Shown here: piece by piece, positions 16,988 to 56,485 of the stretch | How the letters are laid out: every line of letters begins with the position of its first letter | Position numbering within the stretch: the first letter of the stretch is position 1 | Assembly (NCBI GenBank): GCA_026398695.1 | Contig: JAPLSJ010000099.1 | Location: 1-57,551 of the forward strand | Length of the DNA stretch: 57,551 bases | Direction of reading: 5' to 3' | DNA from: Arenimonas sp. | Lineage (GTDB): Bacteria > Pseudomonadota > Gammaproteobacteria > Xanthomonadales > Xanthomonadaceae | Made by a program: the position numbers and the translations under genes | The notes under the pieces: model-generated | What the model saw: the letters and a program-made list of their open reading frames with translations, nothing else | Databases searched by the model: none | Told to the model about the DNA's origin: nothing

Positions 16988-17093
16988 TGCGGCGCGTTGG
17001 CGCGCACCGGCCCCGGTGCGCGCTTGACGGTTTTCCCTGTCGGGTGGTCTTCTCGGGTTGAACCGGGGCGCGGCCCCTGCAGGGGACCCCGCC

Positions 17094-20000
17094 ATGACGC
17101 TTCGCTTCCGCCTCGCCAGCGCCGCCTGCTTCGGCCTAGCCTCGCTGGCGCTCGCTGCCGCCGAACCGCCGCGGATCACCGGCACCGACGGCGAGGACGA
17201 TCGGCTGGCGATCGAATTCGACCGGCCCATGCTCACATGGCGCGGCGAAAGCGACACGGCGGGCATCACGCTCTCGCCGCAGGTCGAATGTCGCTGGTTC
17301 TGGGAGCAGGACACGACCCTGGCCTGCCAGGTACCCGAGGGCAGCACCCGGCCCTTCCGGCAGGCCACGTCCTATCGCCTCGAGCTGCCCGGCGGCCTGT
17401 GGTCGCAGGCCGGCGCCGAACTCGCACCCACCACGCTCGACGTGGTGTCGTCGCGGCCCGAGCCGCGCGTGCAGATCAGCGACTGGAACGCGGGCCAGCC
17501 CGCGCTGCGGGTGGTGTCCCATGAAATGCCGCTGACCCTGCAGGACCTGGCGCAGGTGCTCGAACTTCGCCTCGACGACCAGCCGGTGGACTACACGCTG
17601 GCGCCGCTGTCGGCCAAACAGCTGGCTTCGATGTACCTGTCCGACGGCGGCAGCGCGTTCAACGTGCTGCCCACCCGCTGGCCCACGACCCGCGGCACGC
17701 TGGTGGTGTCGGTACGGGAAGGGTTGCGCAGCCCCGCCGGCCCCGTCCGCGGCGAAGCGCGCAGGCTGCTCACGACCCGCGTGAACGAACCACTGCGGCT
17801 GGTGGGCCTGGGCTGCGGCTGGTCGCGCATGCCGATGACGGCGGAGCAGGTCGAGAAGTGGGGCCGCGACGAATGCGCGCCAGACGCCGACGTGGCCCTG
17901 GTGTTCTCACGCCGCCTGGCCAAGGGTGAGGCCGAGCGCATTGCCGCGGGCCTGCCGGGCTTGGCCGTTTCGAAGGATTCCAACCACTGCCGTTGGGACT
18001 GCGGCGACAACGAAGCCCGTTTCCACGTCGGATTCACCGCCACGGCCGCCGGCGTCAGCCTGCCCATCGTGCTGCCGGCCGACCTGCGCGCCGACGACGG
18101 CAGCCTGATCGAAGCAGGCGCGGTGCCGGTGCTGGTGTTCCGCGACCATCCGGCGAGCGTGCGCAGCGAGCCGCCGGTGCGCCTGCTGCGCCCCGGCGGC
18201 GACGCCGCGCTGGCGCTGGAAGTGCGCAACCTGGACGCGCCGGCCACCGTGGCGGAGCTGGGCACCGGCCGGCGCACGCGGCTGCGCGAAAGTGCGCTGC
18301 CGGTAACGGGCATCACCAACCGCTTCGAGCCTTGGCGGGCCAAGGCGCCTCGCGGCGACGTGGCGCGCAGCGGCGGCCTCACGCTGGCCGGCGTGCGCGG
18401 TTCGCCCGCGCCCGGCCTTGCGGTGGCGGTGGCCCCGTTCAACGTCATCGCCGCTGCCGATGCTGGCCGGGTGATGGTGTGGGCCACCGATTGGGACACC
18501 GCCGCCGCCATCGCCGACGCCAGCATCGACCTGCTGCGGGTGACGGCCGAGGGCCGCGAACCGGTGCGGGCGCGCGGCCGCACCGGTGCCGACGGCGTGG
18601 GCTACGTGCCCGCGCCCAAGGAAGAGATCCAAGACGAGCGCACCCAGACGCGCCTGGTGCGCGTGCGCCACGACGGGCGCTGCTGTACCGGCCGGGCGAG
18701 ACGGTGCACTTCCGCGTCTGGTCGCGCGAGCGCGACGGCAATCGCCTGCGTCCGTTCGCGGGCAAGGCGGGCGACGACACGGCGCTGGTGCTGCGTGCAC
18801 AGGGCGAGCGCTCGGCGATGGACGCCTGGTCGGCACCGCGCGACGGCTGGGGCAGCGTGGCGGGCGAACGCGCCCTGTCGGCAAGCCTCGCGGACGGCAC
18901 CTACTGCATCACCCGCGCCGACGACAGCGACGGCAGCTACAGCCCCAGCGGCGCCTGCTTCGAGGTGGCGCGCTTCGACAGCCAGGCGGTCTGGGCCAGC
19001 AGCGCCTTCGACCGCAAGCTGGTGCGGGCCGGCGGCGAGCTCGCGCTCGACATCGAGGGTGGCTTCTATTCCGGCGGCGGTGCCGCCGGGGCGCAGGTCG
19101 AGACCAGGGCGTTCCTGGCGCCCACGCCGTTGGGATCAATCTATCCGGCGTTCGCACGGTTCACTTTCGCCAGTCCGCTGAGCGAAGACGGCGACGAATC
19201 GGACGTGGACCCGCTGGCCACGCTGCCGGGCGCCGCCGTGCTGGACGGCCGCGGCCGGGCGCGCTTCGCCGGCAGGCTGCCGCCGCGGTTCCTGCACGGC
19301 GAGCCCTCGGACACGGAGGCGGACGAGGAGGTGGCGATCGGCGAGATCCGCGTCAATGCCTACGTGACCATCCCCGGCGCGGCGTCCAGCGCCAGCCCCG
19401 TGGCCAGCGTGGTGTACGCCGCGCACGACCGCTACGTGGGCCTGCACAGCGAAGGCTGGTGGCTGTCGTCGAACGAGGACCCGCGGCTGGAGGCCATGGT
19501 GGCCACGGCCGAAGGCGAGGCGATCACCGCAGGCACGGTGCGCGTGCGCATCGAGCGCGACGGCGAAGGCGACGCGGTCGAGGTGCTGGCGCGCTGCGAG
19601 CTGGCAATCGGCGCGGTGGCGCCCTGCGGGTTCCGCGCGCCCGAGCCGGGCGAGTACCGCTTCGTGGCCGAAGCCGACGGGGCCGCGCCCGTCGCGTTCA
19701 GTCGCTATTTCTACGGCGGCAGCGCGCAGGTACGCCCCGGCGCGGCACCGTCTGCCGAACTGACGCTGGTGACGCCGCCCGCCGCCGGTGCCGACGCCGT
19801 GCTGCGCCTGCTGCAGCCGCATGCGCGGGCCAGCGCGCTGTTCGTGGTCGAGTACGAGGGCGTGCTGCGTCACTGGGTGCAGGAAGTGGGGCCCGACGCG
19901 CAGGTGCGCGTGGCGATGCCGCCCGAGTGGGCGCCCGGCGTGTCGGTGCGCGTGCTGCTGCGGCCCGTGTCGGACGCCCCGTCCAACGGCGCACTGGAGG

Positions 20001-22603
20001 CGAAGACGCTCAACGCCGTCGTGCGCGTGCCCGTCGCGCGGCCTGGCGCCGGCAAGGCCAGCGTCACGCTGGAGGCCGGTGCGCGCGCGCCGGGCGAAGA
20101 CCTCGTGATCCGGCTGGCCAACAGCGCCGCCACGCCGCGGCTGGTCACGCTGGCGATCGTGGACGATTCGGTGCACCAGCAGGCATCGGCGATGCACGGC
20201 GTCATCGATCCCAATGGGCGGCGCTTCATCGGCCTGCTGGAAGACTGGTCCGGCGCGAGCTGGCACGGCTTCGGCGCGTGGAGCCGGGTGCCGAACCTGT
20301 TCCAGGAGAAAAGGCCGACGGCCGCGAACGCGCCGCTGGCGGCGCCGGCACCCGCGGCTTCCGATGGCGTCTACAGCGACGCCTTGAGCCTGGATACGGT
20401 CCAGGTCACCGGCAGCCGCATCAAGCGCTCCGAGATCGTGGACAGCAAGGCCACCGGCAGTGCGCCGCCGCGTGAAGCCACGTCGGCGGAAGGTGCGCCG
20501 GCGGCGCGCGTGCGCAGCCGCTTCCCGGTGACCGCCTACTGGAACGCGGGCGAAGAACTCGCCCCGGGCGAAACCCGCGAGCTGCGCGTGCGCCTGCCCG
20601 ACAACCTCACGCGCTGGCGCCTGCTGTACTGGACCAGCGACGACGGCGACGGATTCACGCTCGGCGAAGACACCTTCGCGGCCACGCTGCCGCTGGAGAT
20701 CCGGGCGGGGCTGCCGTCGCGCATTTTCCAGGGCGACCAGGGCAGCGGCACGGTGCTTGCGCGAGTGAACGCCGAAGGCGGCGCCACGGTGACGCTGCAG
20801 GTGGACACCGAGGGCGCCGGCGCCGACGGCCAGGTCAAGGCACGGGGCAACGTGGCCCCGCAGGCTTCGCTGGCGCGGCGCGTGCCGCTGGTGCCCGATG
20901 CGCAGGGCCGCATCGCGCTGCTGGCGCGCGCGTCCACCGCCACCACGTCCGACGCGCTGTCGTCGGCGGTGGAGGTGCAGTCGCGCTTCGCCACGACGTC
21001 GATCACGCAGGCCGGCTGGCTCGAGGACGGGCCGCTGGCGCTGTCGCGACCCGACGTGCCGCGCGGCGCCATCAGCCCCGTGCTGTCCGTCACCGTGGCG
21101 CAGGGCACCGACCCCTGGCGCGACGGCTGGCTGCGCGACCTGCGCGACTACCCGCACCGCTGCTGGGAACAGACGCTCAGCCGCGGCATCGGCGCCGCGC
21201 TGGCGCTGCAGTCGCCCGACAGCGCGGCCGCGTGGCCGGACGCGGGCGACGTGGTGGCAACGACGCTGCGCGACGCGCCTTCGTTCGTGGACGACGAGGA
21301 GAACTACCGCTACTTCGCCGGCAACGCCAGCGAATACTCCGAGTTCGACCCGGTGCTGTCGGCGCACACGCTGCGCGGTTTCCAGGTGCTCGATTCGCTG
21401 GGCCACCCGGTGCCGATGGCCTGGCGCGAGACGCTGCGCCAGCAGCTGGGCCGCTTCGCCAGGCTGTCGCGCCACGATGAAGACGACGCCTGGGAAGCCG
21501 AGCGCGTCGCCATTGCCGCCGGTGCGCTGGCCACCGACGGGCAGGCCATCGGCGACGACGTGGTGCGCTGGCTGTGGCCGCTGCGCAAAAAGATGAGCTG
21601 GTTCGGCCGCAGCGAACTCGTGCGCGCCGCCGCCGCCAATCCGCAGCATGCGGTGCTGGCCGCGCAGGGCCTGCAGGAGCTGCGCGACGCGGGCAGGCAG
21701 CGCGGCGCGCGCCGCATCCTTGAAACCACCGGCGACTGGAGCCTGCTGATGGGCTCGCCGCTGCGCGACCAGTGTGCGGTCACGGCCACGCTGTTCACGC
21801 TCGACCGCAGCCCGGAACACCTGGGCACGCGCCAGCAGTGGCTGCGCGGACTGAACGACCTGTACGCGGGCGGCACCGGCAGCCTCGACACGCAGTCCAG
21901 CGTGCAGTGCCTGCTGGCGTTGCGGGCCGCGGGCGCGGCGCTCGACCTTTCCGGCACCGCGCGCGTGGGCGTCACCGCCGGCCTGCAGTCCACCGAGCTG
22001 GCGCTGGCCGCCGGGGAAAAATCCGCAAGCTGGGAAACGCCGCTGGCGCCCACCGCCGAACTCGCGCTCACGCCGCGCGGCGGCAGCGACGGCACGCTCA
22101 ACTACAGCGCACAGGTCAGCTACACGCTGGACCAGCGCAACGCCGTGGCGCAGGCCACCGGCCTGCAGCTGCAGCGCAGCTACCAGGTGATGCGCGGCGG
22201 CGAGTGGCGCGAACTGGGCAACGGTGCGGTCACCGAAGGCGAATGGCTGCGCACCACGCTGACCGTGGTGGTGCCGGCCATGCGCCACTTCGTCGCCATC
22301 ACCGACACGGTGCCCGGCGGCCTGGTGACGCGCGACGTGCGCCTGGGCGGCGTGGCGGGCGAAGACATCCAGCGCCTGGCCGACCCGGGCTCATGGTGGT
22401 TCGACACCCGCCAGACCGGCGCCAGCGAAGTGCGCTTCTATGCCCAGCAGCTGCCACCCGGCACGCACGACCTGCACTACTACACGCAGGCCACGCACGC
22501 CGGCCGCTACTTCGCACCGCCCGCGGTGGCCGAGCTGATGTACGGCCGCAACAGCCGCGCCAACACCGCCTCGCGCGACCTGCAGGTGAATCCGCGCCCC
22601 TGA
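17094..22603 (+). pseudogene. Alpha-2-macroglobulin family protein, frameshifted
   Basis: This large exported protein (about 1836 residues if repaired) would act as a protease trap in the periplasm. An ATG at 17094 starts a signal peptide (cleavage near LAAAEPP), followed by macroglobulin domains. The frame changes at 18675-18677: before it reads RLVRVRHDG, and the continuation ALLYRPGETVHFRVW is in another frame. Restoring one base in the GGG run joins them exactly. The thioester motif is kept as YPHRCWEQTLSRG near residue 1356 (CxEQ core). The C-terminal receptor-like domain ends at TGA 22601-22603. An odd stretch near 1100, LDTVQVTGSRIKRSEIV, resembles the plug linker of TonB-dependent receptors. 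As written the product stops early, so it is a pseudogene or a sequencing error. Confidence 0.88.
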
Positions 22604-22723: not shown

Positions 22724-25024
22724 TCAGTCGACGACGGCGAAGCGATCCAGGGCCTTCTCGGCCTGGCCACGCTCGTGGTCACCCAGTCCGCGGGCGGCGG
22801 CGCGGTAGCGGTTCACCAGCGCTTCGTCGGCGGGCATGCGCGAGGCCAGCGTGCGCAGCGCTTCGCCCGCTTCGAAGTCCGACGAGATGCCGGCCACGAC
22901 GTCCAGCACCGCGTTGGCCACGGCCAGGTCCACCGGACCCGCGTTGACCAGGGCCGAAAGCGCCTCGCGCGCCTCGAAGTCCGAGGACAGTTCGCGGCTG
23001 CGCGCGACGTACGCCGCCAGCACCGCCGGGTTGCCGCGGGTGTGGCGCGCGGCGCGCTCCAGCACGTTGCGCAGTTCGAAGTCGCTGCTGATGCCTTCGG
23101 CCGAGTCCAGCACCAGCTCCACCGTCGCCGGCGTCACGTCGCGCCGGGTGAGCATGGCCTCGAGCACGCGCCGGTGTTCGAAGTCGCTGGAGATGTTGGC
23201 GATCGCTGACTGCCAGGCCTCGCGCGCCACGCCCGTGGCGGGCAGGCGGCTGGCGACCGAGATCAGCAGTTCGGCCACTTCGAAATCCGAGCCGATTTCG
23301 CTGGCCAGGCCCAGCACGCGCGCCTGGTGGTCGGGCGAAAGCGTCTGCGAGTCCAGGGCCACCTGCAGCGCCTGGCGAAGTTCGAAGTCGCTGTCGATGC
23401 CCTTGGCCAGGTCGAGCGAGCGCGCCAGCTGGGCGTCGTCGAGCTTGGCGTTGGCGTAGAGCACGCCGAGGTAGCGCGACTTGGCGTAGTCGGCCTGGAT
23501 CAGGGCCATGTCGGCCAGCAGCGCGTCGGCGCCGCCCTTGGCGAGGATGCGCTTGCCGCGGGATTCGGCATTGATGGCGCTTTCGCGTATCAGCTCCGGC
23601 AGGGTGCGCGCGAGCCACGCGCGGCCGTCGGCGTCGAGCGGCATGGCCTTGCCGTCCACGCGGTAGGCGCGCTGGATGACGCCGTCCTTGCCGAACACTT
23701 CCAGCTCGCGCTCCACGCCCTCGCGCTCTTCCACCAGGTCCAGCCGCGCGCCCTTGCCCAGGCGCACCACGTCGGTCTCGCCGTCGTTGAACGTGATCTC
23801 GCCGCTGAGGCGAAGGTCGACCGACCGTTCCGGGCCGCGGCTGCGGTAGCTGAAATTCTCGCGGCCGTTGATATCGAGGCGCGTGAGGATGCGGTCGGCG
23901 AAGCCCTGGGAAGCGACGGTGGTGATGGCCACGCCCGGCAGGGCGACGATGGCGATGATGGCCAGCACCAGGGCGGTGCGGCGCACGCCGGGGGAAAGCG
24001 GGCGAAGGGTCATGGCGGTGTTCTCCAGTAGATTGCTGACGCGTCGGACCACGGCACCGGGTTCACCGGCCATGGCCACTGCGAGGGCGGGTTGGCCGGC
24101 GCGGGCGCCGGCGTGGGAAAGGCAGGTGGCCAGGCATTCGGCCAGCGGGCGGCCGCTGCCCAGCAGCTGCGCGGCGCGGGCGTCGCAGGCGTCTTCGGCC
24201 AGGGCGTCCAGGCGGCGCTGCGCGTGCCGGGCCAGGGGATGGAAAAACAGCGGCAGTGCGGCGATGCGCTGGGCGATCCGCCACGCCGGGTCACGGCGCT
24301 GCAGATGGCTCAGCTCGTGCGCCAGCATCGCGCGCTGCTGCGTCGGCGGCAGCGTCTGCGACCACGACGGCAGCAGCACGTTCGCGCCCGGCAGCACCAT
24401 CGGGCTTTGCAGCTGCGGCAGCAGGCGCAGGGTGGGCGGGGCGATGGCGAGTTCGTTGGCCAGCAGGCGTGCGGCGCCGGACAGGCCGGGGCCCGGGATG
24501 GCACCGTGCTGTTCCGCGGTACGGCCCAGGCGGCGCACGGCGATGGCCTGCGCCAGCAATCGGACCGCGCCCCACAGCAGGCCGGCCAACCAGCACGCGA
24601 GCAGCCCCCACGCCGCGGCGTCGGGTACTTCGACGTCGGTGGGAAGGCGCGCCCCGGAGGCAGGCAAGGGCATCGTTTCCCGCGCGATGAGCGTGGGTGG
24701 CGTGGAAGGCCGCGGCGCGGCGGCCGGGTCGCGGGTTCCGCTGTCGAATGCCGCCTGCGGCGCTTCGACCATCGCAGGCGCCGGCGTCGTAAGCGGTGCG
24801 AGCATCGCGGCGCGCGGCGACGGCGAAAGATCGCCCGGCGACGGCAGGAATTCGAGCGACGACGACAGCAGCGCGCCGAACAGCGCGATGCGCCAGGCCA
24901 GCTCGGCCCAGCCCGGATGCTTCAGCGCACCCGCGCGCTCCAGCAGCCACGCCGCGCCCAGCAGCACCGTGGCGTGCAGGGCCAGCGTCAGCAGGAAGGA
25001 GAAGAAAAGGTCGACCGCGCTCAC
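22724..25024 (-). CDS. M56 (BlaR1/MecR1-like) metallopeptidase with 34-residue repeats
   Basis: The 766-residue protein begins with membrane segments (residues 5-25, 38-55, 140-165) and an M56 zinc peptidase domain, with the HExxH motif in MLAHELSHLQRRD near residue 245. A further membrane helix follows near 345-365 (TALVLAIIAIVALPGVAI). After a beta-rich region comes an array of seven repeats, residues 511-748, each 34 residues and mostly carrying SDFE. M56 proteins sense a signal and cleave a BlaI-type repressor. The gene starts with GTG at 25024, overlapping the blaI stop by 4 nt (GTGA), so the two are translationally coupled. Unlike BlaR1 there is no penicillin-binding sensor; the repeats take its place. 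Confidence 0.9.
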   Translation of the reverse strand: MSAVDLFFSFLLTLALHATVLLGAAWLLERAGALKHPGWAELAWRIALFGALLSSSLEFLPSPGDLSPSPRAAMLAPLTTPAPAMVEAPQAAFDSGTRDPAAAPRPSTPPTLIARETMPLPASGARLPTDVEVPDAAAWGLLACWLAGLLWGAVRLLAQAIAVRRLGRTAEQHGAIPGPGLSGAARLLANELAIAPPTLRLLPQLQSPMVLPGANVLLPSWSQTLPPTQQRAMLAHELSHLQRRDPAWRIAQRIAALPLFFHPLARHAQRRLDALAEDACDARAAQLLGSGRPLAECLATCLSHAGARAGQPALAVAMAGEPGAVVRRVSNLLENTAMTLRPLSPGVRRTALVLAIIAIVALPGVAITTVASQGFADRILTRLDINGRENFSYRSRGPERSVDLRLSGEITFNDGETDVVRLGKGARLDLVEEREGVERELEVFGKDGVIQRAYRVDGKAMPLDADGRAWLARTLPELIRESAINAESRGKRILAKGGADALLADMALIQADYAKSRYLGVLYANAKLDDAQLARSLDLAKGIDSDFELRQALQVALDSQTLSPDHQARVLGLASEIGSDFEVAELLISVASRLPATGVAREAWQSAIANISSDFEHRRVLEAMLTRRDVTPATVELVLDSAEGISSDFELRNVLERAARHTRGNPAVLAAYVARSRELSSDFEAREALSALVNAGPVDLAVANAVLDVVAGISSDFEAGEALRTLASRMPADEALVNRYRAAARGLGDHERGQAEKALDRFAVVD
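22781..23494 (-). repeat. Seven-fold 34-codon repeat in the M56 protein
   Basis: Six copies of SDFE start at residues 545, 579, 613, 647, 681 and 715 of the M56 protein, every interval being exactly 34 residues (102 nt). A degenerate copy beginning ADYA fits at 511. The unit pattern is roughly (I/L)(S/G)SDFE, then a hydrophobic helix (xxALxxxL), then another helix, then xx(I/L)S. A 34-residue helical unit suggests an alpha-solenoid of TPR or HEAT type, exported side. Confidence 0.9.
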
Positions 25025-25419
25025 GGCTTGTCCGCCTTGGCACCGGCCAGCAGGGCGCGCACGCGTTCGAGGTCGCCCGGCGCGACCTCCTTTTCACTGA
25101 CCAGGTGCGCCAGCAGGGCGCCCGGGTCGCCGCGGAACAGGCTCTGGATCAGGTCGCCCACCATCGTGCGGCGCACCTGCGGCTCGGTGACCAGGGCGCG
25201 GTAGTACAGCACGCGGCCGTCGCGGCGCTGGGCCACGGCACCGCGCTTGGCCAGGCGGGTGAGCAGGGTGGCGACGGTGGTGTGGGCCAGGCCGCGTTCG
25301 CTGGCCAGGGCGGCGGCGACGTCGGCCACGCTGGCCTCGCCGCGCCAGAGCACGCGCATCACGTCCAGCTGCAGTTCGCTCAGCGCGATGTCGTCGGGGC
25401 TGGGGTCGGTCGGTGCCAT
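25021..25419 (-). CDS. BlaI/MecI/CopY family transcriptional repressor
   Basis: This 132-residue protein has a winged helix domain (LSELQLDVMRVLW, then SVADVAAALASERGLAHTTVATLLTRLAKRG) and a C-terminal dimerisation helix region (LLAHLVSEKEV). It should bind its own promoter as a dimer and be cleaved or released in response to the partner M56 protease. Residue 1 is the ATG at 25419. A 30-nt dyad lies only 9 nt upstream of the ATG, consistent with autoregulation of the two-gene operon. Confidence 0.93.
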   Translation of the reverse strand: MAPTDPSPDDIALSELQLDVMRVLWRGEASVADVAAALASERGLAHTTVATLLTRLAKRGAVAQRRDGRVLYYRALVTEPQVRRTMVGDLIQSLFRGDPGALLAHLVSEKEVAPGDLERVRALLAGAKADKP

Positions 25420-25427
25420 GGGTCTTC

Positions 25428-25457
25428 TTCTACAAGTGTCGTACTACACTTGTAGAA
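25428..25457. promoter_or_regulatory. Probable BlaI operator, 12-bp inverted repeat
   Basis: TTCTACAAGTGT (25428-25439) and ACACTTGTAGAA (25446-25457) form a perfect dyad with a 6-nt spacer. TACA/TGTA half-sites are typical of BlaI/MecI/CopY operators. It lies immediately before the repressor start and so overlaps or abuts the promoter and leader. Confidence 0.85.
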
Positions 25458-51683: not shown

Positions 51684-52340
51684 TTACGGGGGTGTGAACT
51701 TGACGGGGACGAGGACATCGCCACCCACCTTGACGCCATTGCGCAAGCCGGCGTTGAACTTCCAGCGGCGCGCGGCGTCCATGGCCGCACGGTCGAGGTT
51801 GCGGTTGCGGCTCGACTTGTCGACGACGACGTTGAGCACGTTGCCGGCAGCATCGATGGTGACGCGGAGCATCACGGTGCCGCCCACGCCTTCACGCAGT
51901 TCCTTGGACGGGTAGCGCGGCTGGTTCAGCGCGCGGCCACTGATGTCCTCGGAGGGCGCGAAGTCGGACGGCGGGGCCGGCGGCGACGGCGGAGCCGGCG
52001 GCGGGGCCTCGATGTCGATCGGGCTCGGGTCGTCGAACACCACCGGCGGCTCTTCCGGCGGCGGCGGGACCGGCGTCGGCTTGGGCTGCTCGATGATCTT
52101 CTGGACCACCTTGGGCGGTTCCGGCGGCGGCGGCGGCGGCGGCGGGGGCGGCGGCGGCGGTTCGATGAAGCTGACCTGGGTCACTTCGTCGTCCTTGTCC
52201 GGCGCATCCGGGGTGGCCACCGGCACCAGCATCAGCATGAAGGCGATCGCATGCAGGGCAATGGCAAAAGCATTGCCGCCGATGCGAGCCCAGCTGATGC
52301 CCTGGGGTGGGTTGTCGTAGTTGTAATTCTTGTCCGTCAT
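51684..52340 (-). CDS. tonB: TonB energy transducer
   Basis: This 218-residue protein has a short cytoplasmic start (MTDKNYNYDNPPQG), one membrane helix near 25-45, a long Pro-rich spacer with a run of 13 consecutive Pro, and a TonB C-terminal domain (QPRYPSKELREGVGGTVMLRVTID, DRAAMDAARRWKFN). It carries energy from ExbB/ExbD to outer-membrane receptors. The stop at 51684 is 55 nt before exbB. Confidence 0.96.
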   Translation of the reverse strand: MTDKNYNYDNPPQGISWARIGGNAFAIALHAIAFMLMLVPVATPDAPDKDDEVTQVSFIEPPPPPPPPPPPPPEPPKVVQKIIEQPKPTPVPPPPEEPPVVFDDPSPIDIEAPPPAPPSPPAPPSDFAPSEDISGRALNQPRYPSKELREGVGGTVMLRVTIDAAGNVLNVVVDKSSRNRNLDRAAMDAARRWKFNAGLRNGVKVGGDVLVPVKFTPP

Positions 52341-54877: not shown

Positions 54878-56485
54878 TCAGGCCTTGGCCTGGCTGGCGG
54901 CGGTGTCGGTGGCGTCTTCCGCCGCGGGCGGCGGGACGATCGGGTCAGGTTCGCGCGCCAGCGCGCGGAAGCGCAGCAGTTCGTTGAGGCGGTAGCCGGA
55001 GTAGCGGCCCAGCAGCAGCGCCATCGCGAACAGCACCAGCAGCACTTCCGGGAACACGAACACCAGGTGCTCCAGCGGCTGCCAGCTCATCACCAGGTAC
55101 GCCAGCGCGGCCACCACCAGGGTGCCCACGCCTTCGCGGATGGCGGTGCCGGCGCCGCGCTCGTCCCAGGCCACGGACATGCGCTCGATGGTCATGGCCA
55201 TGATCACCATCGGGAACAGCGCCACGGACAGGCCGACCTCCAGGCCCAGGCGGTTCGACAGCACGCTCACCGCGGCCATCAGCAGCACCACCAGGATCAG
55301 GATGGCGGTCAGGCGCGGCACCAGCAGCAGCCGCAGCCGCTCCAGGTAGAAGCGCACCAGCAGGCCGAAGCCGACCACCAGAACGAACAGGGTGATGCCG
55401 GCCACCAGCGCGGTTTCGCGGAAGGCCAGCGCGATCAGCACCGGCATGAAGGTGCCGTAGGTCTTCACGCCCACGAGGTTGCGCAGCAGCAGCATGATGA
55501 AGGCGCCGATCGGCACCATCAGCAGGATGCGGTAGGTTTCCTGCGCCTGCAGCGGCAGGCTGAGCAGGGAATAGCGCACCAGGTTGGCGTCCTGCACTTC
55601 CAGGCGACGCTCGGCGGTGGCCATGGCGTCGGCGAGGTTGCTGCGCACGGTGAACATCAGCGCCGACGGCGGCACGCCGTCGATGGCCATCAGCGGCTTG
55701 CCGCTGCGGCTCCACTCGAACAGGTCGGACGGCTTGCCCTCGGCGGCCGTGCGCGGATCGATCATGGTCCAGCCCAGGCCGTTGTGCACGATCAGCCAGG
55801 TCTGCATGCGCGATTCCGGGTCGCGGTCGATCTCGGTGAGGCGGATGCCGTAGACCACGCGCGCCGGGATGTTGCGGCTGGCCAGCAGCTGCACGATGAA
55901 GTTGCTGCGGGCGACGTCGTCGTCGCGGAAGCGCTCGCGCAGCAGCGCCACTTCCTCGCTGGGCGATGCTTCGTTCAGGCGGCCCAGCAGCTCGCGGGCG
56001 AAGGTGATGGTGTTGGACGAGCGGTCGCGCACCTGGTCGAGCAGGGTTTGCGCGGCGGTGGCGTACGGTTCCTCCAGCACGGCCGGCTCGGGGATGACCG
56101 GGTCGAGTTCTTCCTCGGGCAGCGGCTGGTGGTCGTCGGCGCGCACGATGGTGGCGCGGTAGTAGAGGTCCTGCTCGCCAAGCGCGCGGCGGATGGCCCA
56201 CTGCACTTCACGGCCACCGTCGCCCGATTCCTCGAGCTTGGAATAGTTGCGCGCCACGAAGCGCTCGTCGAGCACCGTGAAGCCGGGCGCCTGCGCAGGC
56301 AGCTGCAGCGTGACGGTGTTGGCGCCGGTGCGCGGCTGGTACTCCACGTGCGCCTGCACGGTCCACACCTGCACCTGCGCATCGGGCTGGAGCGGGAACT
56401 TCAACACGCTCCACTTGTAGTACATCGCGGCCAAGGCCACCGCGATGATCGAGAAGGCCAGCAGGTAAAGGTGGCGTTTGCTCAT
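54878..56485 (-). CDS. Inactive transglutaminase-like protein with 7TM domain
   Basis: This 535-residue protein has an N-terminal membrane anchor (6-22), a periplasmic transglutaminase-like domain (residues 60-300) and about seven membrane segments in residues 330-505. The catalytic Cys is not seen where the fold would place it (RSNFIVQLLASRNIPARVVYGI keeps the surrounding motif), as in the inactive transglutaminase family. It starts a two-gene unit with the ATP-grasp protein, a pairing found in many Proteobacteria. Its role is unproven. Confidence 0.85.
   Translation of the reverse strand: MSKRHLYLLAFSIIAVALAAMYYKWSVLKFPLQPDAQVQVWTVQAHVEYQPRTGANTVTLQLPAQAPGFTVLDERFVARNYSKLEESGDGGREVQWAIRRALGEQDLYYRATIVRADDHQPLPEEELDPVIPEPAVLEEPYATAAQTLLDQVRDRSSNTITFARELLGRLNEASPSEEVALLRERFRDDDVARSNFIVQLLASRNIPARVVYGIRLTEIDRDPESRMQTWLIVHNGLGWTMIDPRTAAEGKPSDLFEWSRSGKPLMAIDGVPPSALMFTVRSNLADAMATAERRLEVQDANLVRYSLLSLPLQAQETYRILLMVPIGAFIMLLLRNLVGVKTYGTFMPVLIALAFRETALVAGITLFVLVVGFGLLVRFYLERLRLLLVPRLTAILILVVLLMAAVSVLSNRLGLEVGLSVALFPMVIMAMTIERMSVAWDERGAGTAIREGVGTLVVAALAYLVMSWQPLEHLVFVFPEVLLVLFAMALLLGRYSGYRLNELLRFRALAREPDPIVPPPAAEDATDTAASQAKA

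Follow-up and report, generated by a model that had tools for sequence, protein, structure and literature searches.

The 766-residue protein encoded on the reverse strand at positions 22724 to 25024 of the window (the whole stretch of 57,551 nucleotides from Arenimonas sp. that was analysed, belonging to a 2.76 Mb assembly in 137 contigs that is 89% complete) is best explained as a transmembrane signalling receptor of the BlaR1 type, in which a beta domain and an eight-unit alpha-solenoid replace the penicillin-binding sensor and which operates in a circuit made up of its own operon. We hold this reading with moderate confidence. Its architectural component, that is, the repeats, the predicted fold, the HEXXH motif, the pairing with a blaI gene and the conserved operator, is well supported; we infer the periplasmic location of the tail, the class of ligand, the mode of activation, the cleavage of BlaI and the output. 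The literature cited here treats proteases of the BlaR1 type as beta-lactam receptors, and a conserved form whose input domain is different and uncatalogued would suggest that the protease-repressor pair is a more general device for envelope sensing, in the form of a two-gene system tractable for finding a new signal and a new response. Among the matches listed in a search of the open-licence literature, no description of a repeat-bearing M56 protein was found.

The assignment to the M56 family, put forward in the original prediction, is borne out by the sole Pfam match above cut-off in the protein, which starts at a GTG codon: PF05569 (Peptidase_M56), with 47.5 bits against a cut-off of 31. 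The same prediction had denied the protein a penicillin-binding domain, and neither this nor a beta-lactamase domain appears among its Pfam matches; the generic BlaR1 profile (NF000326, blaR1_generic) yields 18.9 bits against a cut-off of 400. In a full-length model of moderate confidence (mean pLDDT 76.2, pTM 0.50), long helices with hydrophobic stretches occupy residues 3-30, 37-57, 135-173 and 346-371, the last of them being a fourth predicted transmembrane helix (TM4; 23912..23989, reverse strand) that runs into the C-terminal domain. Comparison of this model with VIA-align ranks five cryo-EM entries of BlaR1 first (Z 14.9-17.2), all aligned within residues 7-322, the best of them (8exs, Z 17.2) with an rmsd of 4.2 over 240 residues; the following rank, at Z 13.0, aligns to the tail. 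The zinc-protease motif HELSH is found at residues 236-240 (24305..24319, reverse strand) and a candidate third ligand, E277, within LAEDACD, and both the H-E-x-x-H residues and this downstream glutamate are invariant in seven full-length sequences, window included.

HEXXH...E is the protease motif named for BlaR1, and the domain that follows the fourth helix of BlaR1 is extracytoplasmic (PMC9834060, in the parts drawn on here), a topology by analogy with which the tail of the window protein would lie outside the cytoplasm, in the periplasm. Like BlaR1 and MecR1 of Staphylococcus aureus (MEROPS M56), the protein presents four long helices in its N-terminal half, which matches 8exs and 8ext, with HEXXH...E between the third and the fourth, a C-terminal domain after the fourth and a BlaI partner. 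Unlike them, it carries a beta domain and a solenoid and has no class-D beta-lactamase-like sensor, and no second gene was found under its operator. A further difference concerns the EL1 loop, which in BlaR1 lies between helices 2 and 3 and has been modelled in the groove of the sensor (PMC9834060, same parts): the loop at the equivalent position here, spanning residues 60-132 between long helices 2 and 3 (24629..24847, reverse strand), is predicted with a pLDDT below 50, and none of its 73 columns is invariant in the seven full-length sequences, window included. This combination of low model confidence and lack of conservation makes transmission via this loop, the route proposed for BlaR1, less likely, and the signal would presumably pass along TM4 and, within the tail, along the beta domain and the conserved linker helices.

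Modelled with AlphaFold2, the tail (residues 374-766) attains a mean pLDDT of 92.3 and a pTM of 0.84 and is predicted to fold into a beta domain and, after it, an alpha-solenoid, which agrees with the regular helical unit anticipated from the sequence. The array of repeats had been described as standing in place of a sensor domain, and it does follow TM4, but the two are separated by the beta domain, of nine predicted strands (residues 377-461; 23642..23896, reverse strand), and by two long linker helices (residues 465-506; 23507..23632, reverse strand; helices 92-109 and 113-133 in the numbering of the tail model) with the conserved pattern P-x3-R ... R-x2-R ... GG. The eight 34-residue units of the predicted solenoid then extend over residues 511-766 (22727..23494, reverse strand). 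The beta domain is the least conserved region of the tail, and conserved columns concentrate in the linker helices, the capping motif and the C-terminal end.

Under the receptor reading, TM4 would place the tail in the periplasm, where the solenoid, as its fold class suggests and as the original prediction had also proposed, would most likely bind an envelope protein or peptide. When the ligand binds or leaves, TM4 and the linker helices would shift, the zinc protease, facing the cytoplasm, would become active and cleave BlaI, and the blaI-M56 operon would be freed from its double-palindrome operator. The signal is probably something other than penicillin. Counting against this reading are the His-Leu pair at the cleavage position of BlaI, a conservation list in which no ligand site stood out, the moderate confidence of the full-length model, the use of other alpha-solenoids as scaffolds and the fact that no regulated effector was found.

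The periodicity of the array is exact. SDFE occurs at residues 545, 579, 613, 647, 681 and 715 (23381-23392, 23279-23290, 23177-23188, 23075-23086, 22973-22984 and 22871-22882, reverse strand), and its five intervals all measure 34 residues, just as first noted. When residues 374-766 were shuffled 200,000 times, 1,120 of the shuffles contained a single SDFE and none contained two, which excludes chance. Self-identity over residues 500-766 peaks at lags of 34, 102 and 68 (0.26-0.27), against a background over lags 5-120 with a mean of 0.089 and a standard deviation of 0.035. The region originally delimited (22781-23494, residues 511-748) had been read as seven units, one of them degenerate; a degenerate copy does exist, but there are two, ADYA at residue 511 and GDHE at residue 748, flanking the SDFE series, and in the tail model a helix begins one residue past the first motif residue at all eight motifs. 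The array as modelled is therefore composed of eight units, the last one shortened by the C-terminus. At the DNA level the six exact units share a mean identity of 47% (40-55%) and use both AGC and TCG as serine codons, and Tandem Repeats Finder lists no array in the M56 gene; the repeat is detectable at the protein level only.

The consensus of 72 units reads S(0.97)-D(0.96)-F/Y(0.57/0.40)-E(0.93)-x-R(0.72)-x-x-L(0.94), the frequencies and the unit profile being drawn from positions 2, 3, 4 and 6 of the array in 18 sequences each, window included, since the other positions contain an insertion column. S-x-x-E at the start of a helix is a textbook capping box. Given that SDFE begins helices and matches this box, its conservation can be explained by structure and is not necessarily the sign of a ligand site; none stood out when conserved positions were listed. 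The units of the window protein are 46% identical to those of its relatives at the same position of the array, as against 25% where the positions differ, and the identity between units of a single protein is 27% (18 of the 19 rows of the tail alignment, with L017 dropped; the alignment itself holds 19 of 21 distinct tails, leaving out L019 and L026, the latter for an ambiguous residue). Across 39 distinct loci encoding the repeat domain, the unit profile detects eight units in one, seven in 22, six in eight, five in four, four in three and three in one, counts that underestimate degenerate units: L084-L087 scored four or five, where a count by motif gives seven or eight, at intervals of about 34. 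Detected units are spaced 32-35 residues apart, or 67-71 or 103 where at least one unit is skipped; the exceptions are a spacing of 45 in L088 and one of 173 in L007, the latter probably due to a false first match. A recent expansion of the repeat was considered and rejected, for the units diverge in DNA and their similarity follows array position across relatives. The array is thus old, nearly constant in length and subject to position-specific constraint, and its regularity reflects structure and not recent expansion.

The tail is found in 15 of 61 related genomes, window's included, and in 24 of 250 genomes of the order (a sixteenth match among the 61, in G029, was excluded as a TPR-like protein by eye). 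The phylum sample yields it in six of 398 genomes, three of them outside the class and in two families, and the class of the genome G360 in one of 240, G360 itself; a tblastn search of plasmids at 1e-5 gave no match. The search in relatives advised at the outset thus reveals an architecture that reaches well beyond the family of the window. M56 proteins exceed the family cut-off in 45 of the 61 genomes (55 at an E-value of 0.001, many of them weak), and against this background the tail marks a minority branch. HEXXH is present in the frame of 34 of the 39 repeat-domain loci. The other five comprise one cut by a contig end (L025), one fragment (L089) and three (L027, L029 and L052) whose frames begin with a hydrophobic stretch in the N-terminal part but encode no protease, which makes the tail a module that can be separated from it.

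Several observations accompany this distribution. In L027 (2127-4055 and 3902-5176) the solenoid protein, which has no protease, is divergent from the frame of a PF00144 serine hydrolase that also gives a weak match to D-aminopeptidase, a single case. In-frame stops within the repeat-domain matches of L053, L080 and L083 may denote decaying genes or assembly errors. The protein of L025 is 77% identical to that of the window, and the record names of L025 (Ramlibacter sp.) and L019 (Rhizobium sp.) are probably wrong.

A broader formulation would make these proteins an undescribed family of solenoid-gated periplasmic receptors of the BlaR1 type, each specific for an envelope protein or peptide and closed on its own operon, with the protease as the response and a solenoid that also works alone in other Pseudomonadota; we advance it as a tentative possibility. 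The probabilities we attach to the different readings add up to more than one, the alternatives being partly compatible.

Alpha-solenoids also act as scaffolds. The one encoded here might be a scaffold, a spacer, a dimerisation arm or a tether to the wall or outer membrane that reports tension, with the signal coming from another protein or from the membrane. The clustering of conserved columns noted above for the tail would suit such a role, as would a near-constant number of units across distant relatives and the conservation of units at the same position. On the other hand, the three loci that carry the module without an M56 domain in the same frame suggest that it probably has a function of its own, and the domain at the equivalent place of BlaR1 is a sensor (PMC9834060, in the sections used here). 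We regard the scaffold as possible, if unlikely.

The blaI gene (25021..25419, reverse strand) shares four bases with the start of the M56 gene, and its product matches both PF03965 (Penicillinase_R; 96.9 bits, cut-off 22.6) and the MecI structure 1sd6 (E-value 2.2e-11). Repressors of the BlaI/MecI type bind a dyad of the TACA-N2-TGTA type upstream of their own gene. Such a dyad is found directly upstream of blaI at 25430..25455 (reverse strand), where a putative double-dyad operator reads CTACAAGTGTAG-TA-CGACACTTGTAG, so that the adjacent repressor and operator of the original prediction are both recovered, the operator by its sequence. Searched with up to three mismatches, the 26-base pattern occurs in 13 of the 61 genomes, at one place each and always adjoining blaI on its upstream side, against two genomes (G045 and G060) for the reversed control. 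All 13 belong to the 15 that encode the repeat protein, and none of the other 46 has the operator. In the two genomes that encode the repeat protein and lack the operator (G019 and G058), the M56 frame reaches the end of a contig and the upstream region is missing. In G045 two contigs share these parts, the operator and blaI close to the end of one and the M56 frame at the beginning of the other, consistent with a single split locus.

Single sites are scarce. With up to one mismatch, CTACANNTGTAG occurs at four places in the window genome versus 58 for the reversed-pattern control, a motif that is rare and not enriched; two of these places are the operator halves, a third (56409) lies inside the frame 54878-56485 and the fourth is at position 10454 of contig C101. 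The strict pattern TACANNTGTA was found at 15 places in six genomes, at or below the reversed-pattern control in every one of them. Two are the operator itself (window genome and G047); those in G003 and G004 lie at a different blaI, closely followed by an M56 match; those in G012 and on contig C7 of G016 form part of a longer, different palindrome beside mutually homologous genes, which we would guess to be ferredoxin reductases; and two on contig C51 of G016, 25 bases apart, are located where an M56 frame starts. Five of the remaining seven lie inside open frames of coding-like composition, the other two (L061 and L068) being unassigned. None of the 13 places beyond the operator in these six genomes proved assignable to this BlaI as a target, and the pattern searches returned no further target gene that might account for the output of the circuit. 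The simplest reading of these sites is that blaI and the M56 gene make up a self-regulating two-gene circuit with autoregulation only. A palindrome of the TATACAGNTGTATA type near base 1501 of L055 and L057, in two genomes and beside homologous genes (54% identical), is probably the site of a different regulator.

The same data bear on a further alternative, partly compatible with the receptor reading, in which the output would be the protease itself, with a solenoid that captures or positions partners and a BlaI that serves only to keep the level of protease constant in a closed loop. A double operator that occurs once per genome in 13 of 13 cases, single TACANNTGTA sites that do not exceed their control in any of six genomes and 13 extra places without one that can be ascribed to this BlaI are what such an arrangement would predict. 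Against it, the regulon was searched by pattern only, a procedure that would miss weaker or half sites, the window genome is 89% complete, and the one-mismatch site on C101 (C101:10454) might be a further target. We deem this alternative unlikely. As to the repressor, BlaI has His-Leu where the aligned BlaI/MecI of S. aureus has its Asn-Phe cleavage site (Asn101-Phe102; PMC9834060, in the parts drawn on here).

The system might still respond indirectly to beta-lactams or wall damage, for instance by means of wall fragments that act on BlaI, a route put forward for Bacillus licheniformis. A peptidoglycan dipeptide has been described to bind BlaI/MecI and displace it from DNA (PMC3305447, in the portion drawn on here), and the BlaR1 homologue of Mycobacterium tuberculosis is, like the window protein, an M56 protease with no counterpart of the beta-lactam sensor domain (PMC9834060), a likeness drawn from description, and one for which the parts of that source used here mention no solenoid. 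The window protein, however, has neither a penicillin-binding nor a beta-lactamase domain, and the double-operator search disclosed no second operator from which a resistance gene might be controlled, which leads us to consider this explanation distinctly improbable.

At an E-value of 1 the tail of the window protein has no Pfam match, in a search whose HMMER filters discard most matches above 0.1, and a TPR profile (TPR_15) matches two of 19 tails (best E-value 2.8e-4), the window tail not among them; a search of PDB sequences gave no match below an E-value of 0.07. Foldseek against the PDB retrieves two chains at an E-value of 0.001 (TM 0.22-0.26). VIA-align lists importins, VPS35 and designed repeats, with HEAT/ARM proteins at the head (best Z 13.1) and its top 50 rows at Z 10.3-13.1 over 140-325 residues, values that sit inside the possible background the tool states for helical repeats. 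The tail as modelled resembles HEAT/ARM-type alpha-solenoids (importins, VPS35) and the designed protein DHR14 in being a superhelix of helical hairpins, and differs from them in belonging to no common sequence family, with 6-15% identity in those top 50 rows. Its best fold similarity is to uncharacterised proteins of mimiviruses and megaviruses: among viral models, the first match is a protein of Powai lake megavirus (E-value 1.4e-5, TM 0.49/0.53), which aligns with an rmsd of 4.5 over 272 columns and yet at 15% identity. Viral proteins named DUF4476 (PF14771) are weaker fold matches (ranks 19 and 22, E-values 0.04-0.05); DUF4476 is absent from the Pfam matches of the 19 tails at an E-value of 1, PF14771 matches none of 249 genomes of the phylum and no sequence link was found between the tail and the mimivirus and megavirus proteins. 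That the M56 protein merely bears an ordinary catalogued repeat of the TPR or HEAT/ARM kind is, despite the two TPR_15 matches and the HEAT/ARM proteins heading the fold list, very unlikely for a tail without a Pfam match and with fold scores inside the helical-repeat background.

No third gene was seen in the operon beside blaI and the M56 gene. An oxidoreductase-type gene lies 3' of the M56 gene on the opposite strand in eight of 11 loci (L019-L029), and a long same-strand frame at that place, entertained as a conserved neighbour, was discarded as the antisense of this gene. The alpha-2-macroglobulin gene adjoining the window locus has a counterpart beside one of the same 11 loci, L021, the locus by which the type strain Arenimonas donghaensis carries the system. 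This bacterial alpha-2-macroglobulin gene (17058-22603, forward strand) is seemingly split into overlapping frames at 17058-19181 and 17993-22603, and its sense switches frame near 18,560-18,620, through a frameshift or an assembly error. In a search for anti-phage defence with PADLOC the M56 protein had no match and BlaI had weak ones (best E-value 8e-4, to Csa3). The window genome encodes a second M56 protein, of 418 residues, on contig C40 (L002, 1177-2433, reverse strand), whose locus also contains a blaI match and whose C-terminus consists of charged 11-residue units (SQSAQGEYERL type) repeated in tandem, which probably form a coiled coil. Elsewhere in the window, positions 52122-52160 hold a run of some 13 CGG triplets, 94% matching.
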